A stretch of DNA of 64,000 nt from Fimbriimonadaceae bacterium (lineage in GTDB: Bacteria > Armatimonadota > Fimbriimonadia > Fimbriimonadales > Fimbriimonadaceae): assembly GCA_019638675.1 (NCBI GenBank), contig JAHBTE010000001.1, positions 528,605-592,604 on the forward strand, given 5' to 3'. A program made the translations under genes and the position numbers. How positions within the stretch are numbered: the stretch's first letter is position 1; each line of letters opens with the position of its first letter. The notes under the pieces were generated by a model. It was not told where the DNA came from. It saw only the letters and a list, made by a program, of their open reading frames with translations, and ran no database searches. Positions 13,892 to 52,000 of the stretch are shown here, in pieces.

Positions 13892-13920
13892 CGCATAAAT
13901 CCAAAATTTCGATTTTCTGA

Positions 13921-13926
13921 TAAAAT
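13921..13926 (+). promoter_or_regulatory. -10 element (TAAAAT) of the corC leader
   Basis: TGATAAAAT on the plus strand, 10 nt before the leader-peptide ATG and 71 nt before the corC ATG. The transcript should begin a few nt before the leader ATG. Confidence 0.5.
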
Positions 13927-13936
13927 AACTGCGCGC

Positions 13937-14005
13937 ATGAGTGCCGACCCGCTCCCTACATGGCCCGTAAGGGCTTCCCGCTCATGGCTGAAATGCCATG
14001 AATGA
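13937..14005 (+). CDS. Candidate leader peptide (22 aa) overlapping the corC start
   Basis: ATG at 13937 opens a 22-codon frame, M-S-A-D-P-L-P-T-W-P-V-R-A-S-R-S-W-L-K-C-H-E, whose TGA (14003-14005) falls 3 nt after the corC ATG (13998-14000). It starts about 4 nt after the predicted transcription start. Three Pro codons and an early Asp recall MgtL (M-E-P-D-P-T-P-L-P), whose translation is aborted when magnesium is low. A hairpin with the corC ATG in its 3' arm (CATGGC, TGAAAT, GCCATG; 13983-14000) would be opened by a ribosome finishing the leader. Another small hairpin with a GTAA tetraloop lies at 13963-13974. That it is translated is inference from position and overlap. Confidence 0.4.
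   Translation: MSADPLPTWPVRASRSWLKCHE
13983..14000 (+). promoter_or_regulatory. Hairpin sequestering the corC start codon
   Basis: CATGGC and GCCATG (6-bp perfect stem, 6-nt loop); the right arm contains the corC ATG. It overlaps the end of the leader reading frame, so ribosome position on the leader decides whether it forms. Confidence 0.4.
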
Positions 14006-15302
14006 CCTAGTTTTCACCTTAATTGGGCTGGTACTTGTCCTCTTATCAGGATTTTTTGTTGCCGCCGAATACGCAATGGTCTCGGCTCGGCCGAGCAAAC
14101 TTGAAGCCGCTGCAAAAAAAGGAAGTGCTTGGGATCGCCTTGCGGTTGCCGCTGTTCAACAACAAACAAGCTACGTCGCCGGAATCCAGGTCTGGATTAC
14201 CTTGCTCGGTATCGGAATGGGTGCGGTTCTGGAACCCTGGCTTTCAGAAAAACTAGGATTACTATTCCCGAAATCCGTTCCTGAGTTCGTCGTCAGCATT
14301 ATCTCGGTTCTCATCGTGGCTTTCCCGCTCGTGGTTCTAGGTGAATTGGTGCCGAAATATCTGGCATTACAGTTCCCCGAGAAAGTCTTACGTCTCACGA
14401 TTGCTCCCCTCCGTTTGCTGACCCTGCTGATCAAGCCGATCAGTTTCATGCTTCAAAAGGTCGGACAATTTGTACTGAAGCTACTCCGCATCCCCGCCGA
14501 CGAAGGCGGCCCGGCAATTTCTCGCGAAGAGCTTTATTATATGATTCGCTCCGGTGAAGAAGGTGGAGGTCTGCACGAAGATCACGCCGACTACATCACC
14601 AAAACCCTGCGGCTTGACGAACTCGACGCAGAAGATGCCATGCTCCACCGACTCGACATCAAGTGGATTGATGTTGATACTCACCCAGACCAACTCATTG
14701 CGAAAATAGCAGAAATTCCGCACAGCCGAATCCCGGTTTGCCGTGGAGATATTGATGATGTTGTGGGAATCGCCTATCTACACGACATCGTGTGCAATAT
14801 GGGCAAGCCAGACTTTAATCTCGCTGACGTCGCCCGCCAACCTGTTTACGTTCCGGAATCACTCACTCTCAATCGTTTAATTGAGATCATGCGCGACACC
14901 AAGTCGCAGATTGCAATCGTGCAAGACGAGTACGGCGGAACTCAAGGTTTGGTGACGTTGGAAGACGTGATCGAAGAAGTCTTCGGCGACATGGAGGACA
15001 GCATCGAAAGTGAACGCGCTCCGATTGAACGCACTAGCCCCGGTCGCATTAGCCTTCGTCCAGATGTTCGATACGACGAACTCCTAGAATTTCTGGAAAT
15101 TGAACCGGACGAAGAAGATGAGTTCACCACCCAAACCCTTGCCGGAATCGTCGTCGAAAAACTTGGACGAACCGCAGGGCTGGGAGACGCGATAGAATTG
15201 CCAATCGGTAAGTTCCGCGTAGAGCAAGCCGCTCAGCGGCGAATCACGAGGATTGGTTTTTATCCTCGTCGCCGACCGAAGGCCGAAGAAACGGCTTCTT
15301 AA
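13998..15302 (+). CDS. HlyC/CorC family membrane protein (CNNM-CBS-CorC_HlyC)
   Basis: A 434-aa integral membrane protein: DUF21/CNNM transmembrane domain (about 1-190, beginning with the LSGFFVAAEYAMV helix), a CBS pair (about 205-330, including Q-D-E-Y-G-G-T-Q-G-L-V-T-L-E-D-V) and a CorC_HlyC domain (about 345-425). Members of this family are linked to magnesium and cobalt efflux or Mg2+ homeostasis at the inner membrane. Its start codon is overlapped by a short upstream reading frame and lies in a hairpin, a hint of translational control. A second, diverged paralogue is encoded at 50522-52000. The next gene, serS, begins 60 bp downstream. Confidence 0.9.
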   Translation: MNDLVFTLIGLVLVLLSGFFVAAEYAMVSARPSKLEAAAKKGSAWDRLAVAAVQQQTSYVAGIQVWITLLGIGMGAVLEPWLSEKLGLLFPKSVPEFVVSIISVLIVAFPLVVLGELVPKYLALQFPEKVLRLTIAPLRLLTLLIKPISFMLQKVGQFVLKLLRIPADEGGPAISREELYYMIRSGEEGGGLHEDHADYITKTLRLDELDAEDAMLHRLDIKWIDVDTHPDQLIAKIAEIPHSRIPVCRGDIDDVVGIAYLHDIVCNMGKPDFNLADVARQPVYVPESLTLNRLIEIMRDTKSQIAIVQDEYGGTQGLVTLEDVIEEVFGDMEDSIESERAPIERTSPGRISLRPDVRYDELLEFLEIEPDEEDEFTTQTLAGIVVEKLGRTAGLGDAIELPIGKFRVEQAAQRRITRIGFYPRRRPKAEETAS

Positions 15303-50521: not shown

Positions 50522-52000
50522 ATGAGCAGTGACCCGATAGAACGTAGGCGGCGAACTGGCTTGGCGAACGCTGGATGGGTTGGAACCCTCACCGTACTTT
50601 TGGTGATTATTCCCGTCCTAGCAGCAGCTCAGGGCCTGTCCGCTGCAAACCGACCAGAGGCAATTGCCCTCTTGGGCAATCCAGCTTTCACAATTGGATT
50701 GATTTTCGCATTTGTGCTGATCATGCTCATCAACGCGATTTGCGTTGCGGGCACTGCCGCGCTCGAAACTCTGCGAAGCCTCCACGTAAAAACGCAAGAC
50801 GAAGGCTCCCGAGCGTTCAAAGTTCTTGAATCGCTGCTTGATCAAAAAGAGAATATTACGGCCGCTACCGTTCTTGGAGCGCAAACCATGCGGGCTTGGT
50901 TGGTTCTCCTCTGCTTTTTGCCTGCGCCAGCGCTCGCCTTCGCTTTTGGATGGATTTCGCTACCAACCGATGCGAACCACTTCTTTTGGGGCTCATTATT
51001 CGGGGCGATTGTGCTCAGCATTCCAGTAATGGCATTGAACGTGATTTTCGCGGAGCTTGTAGCCAAATCCGTTGCCGCTACCCATCCGATTGATACTTTG
51101 CTCCGTCTCGGCTGGATTCTCAAGATTTTCAACGCGATATTCCGCGTCCCGGCGGTGATTTCGGTCAAAATCGCCGATTTGATCACTCAACGATTTGGTA
51201 CAACCGCCCGGTTTGTGATTGACAACCGAGTTGAAGAAGAAATCAAAGAAATCCTTGAATCAGTTGAGCTAGCGGACGACATTGAAGAAGAAGAGCGCGA
51301 CCTACTGAATTCTGTATTTGAGTTTGGAGACACGGTCGCTCGTGAAATCATGACGCCGCGGGTGGACTTGGAAAGCATCCCGGTTGAATCCGATTTACAA
51401 CATGTTGCCGAATTGGTTGAATCTACTGGTCACTCCCGATTCCCTATATTCCAAGATAACGACGACGAAATAGTCGGCATTATCCATGCAAAGGACGTGC
51501 TCCGAGCACTTGCACGTGGTCAAAAAGACATCACTATTGACCAAATCATGCGCCCAGCGCACCACGTTCCAGAAGGAAAGAAGCTCCACGATTTGCTCGC
51601 CGAAATGCGGACAAATAAAACGCAGATGGTCATCATCAGTGACGAATTTGGCGGAACAGCCGGAATTGTCACTATTGAAGACATTGTCGAAGAACTGGTC
51701 GGCGAAATCATAGACGAATACGATCAAGAAACACCTGATATCTCCGAAGTTGACTTTGGGCATAGCGTCAGCGGCAAGGTTCACCTCGACGACCTCAACG
51801 ATGAAATCGAAACTAGCTTCGCGAGCGAAGAATTCGACACGATCGGTGGCTATGTGTTCGGACTTTTCGGGCGGCAACCAGCGGTTGGTGAAGCGGTTTC
51901 AGACGACACTCACACCTTCACGATTGAAGAAAGCGACGGTCGCCGGATTCAACGAGTGCGTGTGGAAGTCAAAGCTCAAGAAGCAGTTGAAGCGGATTAA
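50522..52000 (+). CDS. HlyC/CorC family membrane protein, second copy
   Basis: A 492-aa paralogue of the protein at 13998-15302: four TM helices in a CNNM-like N-terminal domain (to about 215), an acidic stretch (E-E-E-I-K-E-I-L-E-S-V), a CBS pair (V-A-R-E-I-M-T-P-R-V-D through G-T-A-G-I-V-T-I-E-D-I-V-E-E) and a CorC_HlyC domain (about 400-485). It is likely involved in divalent cation efflux or homeostasis. It ends the rpsU-PgpH-ybeY-dgkA row, where a CorC gene is commonly found. TAAAAT at 50499-50504 is about 17 nt upstream, leaving a short leader. Its stop overlaps a convergent small gene by 4 bp. Confidence 0.9.
   Translation: MSSDPIERRRRTGLANAGWVGTLTVLLVIIPVLAAAQGLSAANRPEAIALLGNPAFTIGLIFAFVLIMLINAICVAGTAALETLRSLHVKTQDEGSRAFKVLESLLDQKENITAATVLGAQTMRAWLVLLCFLPAPALAFAFGWISLPTDANHFFWGSLFGAIVLSIPVMALNVIFAELVAKSVAATHPIDTLLRLGWILKIFNAIFRVPAVISVKIADLITQRFGTTARFVIDNRVEEEIKEILESVELADDIEEEERDLLNSVFEFGDTVAREIMTPRVDLESIPVESDLQHVAELVESTGHSRFPIFQDNDDEIVGIIHAKDVLRALARGQKDITIDQIMRPAHHVPEGKKLHDLLAEMRTNKTQMVIISDEFGGTAGIVTIEDIVEELVGEIIDEYDQETPDISEVDFGHSVSGKVHLDDLNDEIETSFASEEFDTIGGYVFGLFGRQPAVGEAVSDDTHTFTIEESDGRRIQRVRVEVKAQEAVEAD

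Follow-up and report, generated by a model that had tools for sequence, protein, structure and literature searches.

Control of a gene by Mg2+-dependent destabilisation of the ribosome on its early codons is so far known from a few enterobacterial genes. In Escherichia coli, ribosomes drop off at EPDP in MgtL at low Mg2+ (PMC11282234), and the N-terminus of CorC (YbeX) has been reported as a sequence of intrinsic ribosome destabilisation (IRD), according to the account given in PMC12421838; we confirmed the E. coli starts as MEPDPTPLP for MgtL and MSDDNSHSSD for CorC. In Salmonella, high Mg2+ induces both corC and mgpA; YoaL overlaps mgpA, the translation of which drops without YoaL, i.e. coupling is positive (PMC12421838). 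In Bacillus subtilis, ribosomes stall on Asp-Pro (PMC11381351). MpfA, a relative of CorC/CNNM proteins, is required for tolerance of high Mg2+ (PMC5122736), and the role of CorC/CNNM proteins as Mg2+ exporters themselves is still debated (PMC8242095, PMC8726484).

Here, we describe a short leader ORF upstream of corC in a 64,000-nucleotide stretch of a Fimbriimonadaceae genome (the window; Table 1). The elements named in the first-pass annotation, i.e. a TAAAAT promoter, a 22-codon frame and a leader stop just past the corC ATG, were all read directly at their positions. TAAAAT lies at 13921-13926 and TG at 13918-13919 makes it an extended -10; relatives carry TGn-TACAAT as its counterpart in the alignment of seven congeneric sequences. 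A scan for consensus sigma-70 -35/-10 promoters at the leader gave no match, as would be expected for an extended -10 that lacks a -35. From this element, the corC transcript is predicted to begin at about 13931-13935 with a 5' UTR of a few bases only, placing the leader ATG (13937, 16 nt past the extended -10 TGATAAAAT) ~2-6 nt downstream of that point. The leader stop is a TGA at 14003-14005 and the corC ATG is at 13998-14000, and the leader end thus overlaps corC by 8 nt. The corC product contains the complete CNNM (DUF21), CBS and CorC_HlyC domain set of CNNM/CorC proteins, and the window sequence has no Shine-Dalgarno (SD) sequence before corC. As previously annotated, a hairpin with the core CATGGC-TGAAAT-GCCATG (13983-14000) lies over the corC ATG, but the stem comprises 7 bp rather than 6 bp because a flanking T-A pair lengthens it. 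In 0.6-0.9% of background cases, a start codon falls within a perfect hairpin with a stem of 6 bp or more, and pairing above 0.95 occurs at just 7% of first-ATG sites genome-wide. Because corC has no SD sequence, has a hairpin over its start and is preceded by a leader close to the transcript start, its translation most probably needs ribosomes entering at the leader; the literature on translational coupling describes such a layout for unfolding or reinitiation (PMC12548453).

Table 1. Features of the corC locus, the second CorC-type gene and leader peptides in the genus (positions in the window; G numbers denote genomes).
Feature	Position	Strand	Basis or remark
Extended -10, TGA-TAAAAT	13918..13926	+	Sequence read and alignment of seven congeneric sequences
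Leader ORF, 22 codons, MSADPLPTWPVRASRSWLKCHE and stop	13937..14005	+	Counterpart in 8/8 genomes of genus
Constrained leader codons 1-7, M S A D P L P	13937..13957	+	Codon substitutions, pattern search
7-bp hairpin TCATGGC-TGAAAT-GCCATGA burying corC start codon	13982..14001	+	Sequence and pairing computation
corC, 434 aa, CNNM transmembrane domain, CBS and CorC_HlyC	13998..15302	+	Pfam PF01595, PF00571, PF03471
Second CorC-type gene, 492 aa, N-terminus MSSDPIERRRR	50522..52000	+	TAAAAT 24 nt upstream
Leader MSADPLPTWP[VA]RASRSWLKCHE			G000, G004
Leader MSDDPVPLC[PH]SYRTRLMAYRP			G002, G001
Leader MSDDPVPIRPRRRTSAMAPRP			G003
Leader MSDDPVPLWNRYRFCLMAKRP			G007
Leader MDPVPLCRRKVREARRMVSP			G005
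Leader MFVGLSTGDDDHPPSCKSIIVALPEVHICS			G006; diverged, acidic/Pro-rich again

The genus belongs to the Fimbriimonadaceae (Armatimonadota), and the isolates ACE_ARM8 and Uphvl-Ar1 are among the relatives compared. CorC of the genus genomes has 52-69% identity to that of the query genome, with the exception of G004, in which it is near-identical. In all eight genomes, corC is separated from a TGNTANAAT-type promoter (in G006, TACAAT without TG) by a short ORF, the stop of which falls at +1, +4 or +8 of corC. The overlap is thus 1-8 nt and there is zero untranslated spacer, so that the stop/start overlap or near overlap known from YoaL-yoaE-like coupling is present throughout the genus, as the first-pass annotation had anticipated for relatives. 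We rejected a programmed frameshift fusing leader and CorC because the length and frame of the overlap differ (+1, +4, +8) and there is no common slippery site. The leader opens with M(S)(D/A)DP(V/L)P in five lineages; four relatives have MSDDPVP and a fifth has MDPVP. This motif is short, and in the query genome itself (G000) the first seven leader codons include just a single Asp and two Pro; the diverged leader of G006 (MFVGLSTGDDDHPPS...) retains an acidic/Pro run. The pairing probability of the corC ATG is at least 0.99 in seven of the eight genomes: a TCATGGC/GCCATGA-type stem is common to six, and in G006 an unrelated 6-bp stem (GTTCAT/ATGAAC) has the same start-burying effect. The exception is G005, in which pairing is 0.66 and there is no simple 3'-arm hairpin. 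In a search of 113 genomes of the order with a pattern of promoter, ATG and Asp-Pro-(V/L)-Pro, eight genomes had matches; seven of these were at corC in this genus (7/8 genomes), compared to one in the other 105 genomes. We conclude with high confidence that this is a genuine and conserved leader, and that it is most probably coupled to corC. In the isolate Uphvl-Ar1 (G001, C1:2745492-2746774), corC matches in two overlapping frames with a frameshift near codon 245, representing either a sequencing error or real decay; this genome is otherwise complete and its leader is intact.

The arrangement in a single genome is within reach of chance. Using 800 kb of stretches from the query genome as background, we found 10 leader-like ORFs that lie next to a -10 and terminate at the start of a gene in 864 kb versus 10-13 for control hexamers, and just two of these 10 matches start with ATG. 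The leader is nevertheless above chance because it is conserved in all eight congeneric genomes and constrained at the codon level (see below). Widespread use of such leaders in this genome was rejected because the counts are no higher than for control hexamers. Separately, an unrelated 315-aa gene of the query genome (L143, near base 14577) starts with MIIEPTPASW beside a -10, probably by chance.

One account of the overlap and the hairpin, an anatomy that fits coupling (reviewed in PMC12548453), is that the leader only delivers ribosomes by combining a 5'-end AUG with coupling to the SD-less corC, in which case its amino acids would sense no Mg2+. The substitution pattern bears on this. In codons 2-7, pS is 0.67 and pN 0 among G002, G003 and G007, all four changes being silent (P about 0.002), and pS is 0.80 and pN 0.07 with G000 added; the first-pass expectation that the Pro/Asp codons would be conserved with synonymous changes thus held. 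For the DPVP core across five lineages, the values are 0.78 and 0.05. Codons 8-14 vary freely (pN 0.49), while the last leader codons have a low pS of 0.18, as would be expected if the DNA there is retained for the hairpin. Therefore, the leader is constrained at its start, free in its middle part and structural at its end. Across deep branches, leaders have an excess of early Asp, Glu and Pro codons compared to shuffled leaders (P about 0.0005). The leader thus has the amino-acid-conserved early acidic and Pro residues of an MgtL-type leader, and it is a short ORF upstream of an Mg2+ transport gene as in that type. A leader that only delivers ribosomes would be compatible with the unconstrained leader body and with the different sequences of the leaders in genera g15 and g20 (see below), but it leaves unexplained why the amino-acid constraint is confined to codons 2-7 and why unrelated leaders are enriched in early acidic and Pro residues; we consider it rather unlikely.

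Leaders ending on corC are also present in two further genera, g15 and g20. These leaders look independent (L021, L022, L023, L030: TTG-DDTASSSAD, TTG-DDTAFCSAD, GTG-HEGEPPPTS and MGDDCVRATADDPLEP); they have acidic starts and no start-burying hairpin, so that the occluded or weak downstream start of YoaL-yoaE-like coupling is found in the genus of the query and not for the g15 and g20 leaders. Elsewhere in the family, numerous genera have the same TACAAT element 12-20 nt upstream of the start of corC itself, which makes corC leaderless-like there. For many Fimbriimonadaceae genera, it seems that an extended -10 (TGNTACAAT) located 13-19 nt ahead of the start codon gives rise to a leaderless corC transcript. 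Asp or Glu is present in positions 2-5 in 27 of 32 such corC genes versus, in the query genome, 21 of 68 leaderless-like genes. We rejected acidity as a general trait of leaderless genes because none of 91 leaderless-like genes had at least four Asp, Glu or Pro in positions 2-8. In a tree of 42 CorC sequences, leaders occur in genus g1 and g15 and separately in g20, requiring three changes; g15 shares a clade with g21, which has no leader and in which CorC starts with MSDPV, and in G062 CorC starts with MSDPVF... at the promoter-proximal ATG. Therefore, it seems that on more than one occasion a leader was inserted between the promoter and corC, or the original acidic start was split off. These data are also what would be expected if the start of the leader were left over as a relic from a former N-terminus of CorC, after corC had come to start at a more internal position: in most of the family it is corC that lies next to the -10, and its N-terminus is acidic, and the sister genus g21 starts with MSDPV. 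However, a pN of about 0 at a pS of about 0.7 is unexpected for a relic, which may fit the origin of the leader and not its present maintenance; as an explanation of the leader we find it improbable. Acidity of the CorC N-terminus could also serve membrane topology, an explanation that is inapplicable to a detached peptide.

The window contains a second CorC gene, which the first-pass annotation described as lacking such a leader. Indeed, no separate leader precedes it; however, the Asp-Pro motif is present in frame at the N-terminus of the protein (50522-50554). In all eight congeneric genomes, this N-terminus retains [SN]SDP or KSDP, and EPPER- or SDPSER-type starts are present in other genera in much of the family. 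Both CorC genes thus carry an Asp-Pro start, one in a leader and one in frame, while mgtE does not. Specifically, an Asp-Pro leader at the Mg2+ importer gene mgtE was rejected because the mgtE N-termini are without the motif and no mgtE gene starts right next to a -10, one being present only in G006, at a distance of 29 nt upstream. We also observed that TAAAAT or TACAAT lies 21-24 nt before the ATG of the second CorC gene in the eight congeneric genomes, and that its N-terminus conforms to M-x-(S/T/D)-(D/E)-P-P/S-E-R across much of the family.

The conservation of Pro codons (two to three) and Asp codons (one to two), together with Asp-Pro being a known stall motif, would also suit a classical attenuation-type leader sensing the supply of aminoacyl-tRNA or of a translation factor (Pro/Asp charging, EF-P) rather than Mg2+. 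However, nothing links CorC to the supply of amino acids, the leader when scanned contained neither a terminator nor a regulatory codon run, and the recurrence of the motif at the second CorC start points to a link with cation transport; attenuation is therefore highly improbable. Among other genes and elements related to Mg2+, CorA had no match in G000 or G006, and the M-box (ykoK) Mg2+ riboswitch (RF00380) had no match in the eight genomes. The query genome encodes bL31, which matters for IRD (PMC11552253), and has no clear copy of EttA, a factor tuning MgtL, the best match scoring 334.6 bits against a curated cut-off of 806.75.

Our working hypothesis is that ribosomes are loaded onto the 5' end of the corC transcript by the near-leaderless leader ORF, that stop/start overlap and the start-burying hairpin couple it to corC, and that the early Asp/Pro codons (M-S-D-D-P-V-P) act as a gate that is hard to translate. 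At high Mg2+, ribosomes would clear the gate, open the hairpin and restart translation at corC, and the presumed Mg2+ exporter would be made; at low Mg2+, ribosomes would drop off at Asp-Pro by IRD, the hairpin would stay closed and corC would be off. This predicts that corC is off at low Mg2+ and that the effect is lost with D/P mutations. Mg2+ sensing is suggested by the motif together with the published work on E. coli and Salmonella; IRD is documented in E. coli and may differ in strength on an armatimonad ribosome. We suggest that Mg2+-dependent gating of corC by the leader Asp/Pro codons is the best single explanation, and give it an even chance of being correct. The predicted sign, ON at high Mg2+, suits an exporter or an Mg2+-protection protein such as MpfA. 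More tentatively, and with somewhat less than even confidence, we propose that CorC-type Mg2+ exporters of the Fimbriimonadaceae are controlled by the ribosome through Asp/Glu-Pro codons starting a leaderless or near-leaderless mRNA, the motif being in frame in some genera and in a separate coupled leader in others, and that this ON-at-high-Mg2+ control mirrors mgtL-mgtA and arose independently of enterobacteria. If true, the principle would recur in a distant, little-studied phylum in an activating sense opposite to mgtL, would provide a compact riboswitch-free route to inducing an Mg2+ exporter, and would account for the recurrent acidic starts in CorC genes.

The first-pass annotation had proposed control resembling that by mgtL and corL. 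The constrained Asp/Pro leader agrees with this, but the sign should be opposite in that leader translation would activate corC and low Mg2+ would lower it, which is closer to YoaL-yoaE. MgtL-mgtA of E. coli and Salmonella shares with this locus a short leader ORF with acidic and Pro residues right after Met that precedes an Mg2+ transport gene. However, MgtL lies 140 nt upstream of mgtA without overlap and represses it via Rho-dependent termination, whereas the corC leader is near-leaderless, overlaps its gene and would activate it; because of this overlap, the locus departs from the MgtL-type layout of a non-overlapping leader, a long 5' region, a Rho-dependent terminator and repression. CorL-corA, also of E. 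coli and Salmonella, is similar in having an Mg2+-dependent uORF before an Mg2+ transporter gene and differs in its few acidic and Pro residues, Rho-dependent repression and long structured 5' region. In YoaL-yoaE (mgpA) of E. coli and Salmonella, the leader likewise runs 13 nt into a CorC-domain gene, overlapping its start, and leader translation is reported to promote the gene; however, YoaL has 52 aa (MDRHRRHFSIRPF...) without an early Asp-Pro motif, and yoaE encodes a TerC-CorC rather than a CNNM-CorC fusion in a different phylum, and homology is not expected. The acidic start MSDDNSHSSD of E. coli CorC (YbeX) is comparable to MSDDPVP, and its IRD, as related in PMC12421838, would raise CorC at high Mg2+; unlike in the leader, this sequence is in frame in the protein and thus closer to the second CorC, MSSDPIERRRR. 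Overall, the corC leader would combine an MgtL-like sensor with a positive, YoaL-like connection to its gene, placing it outside the MgtL system as defined by a separate leader and Rho-dependent repression.
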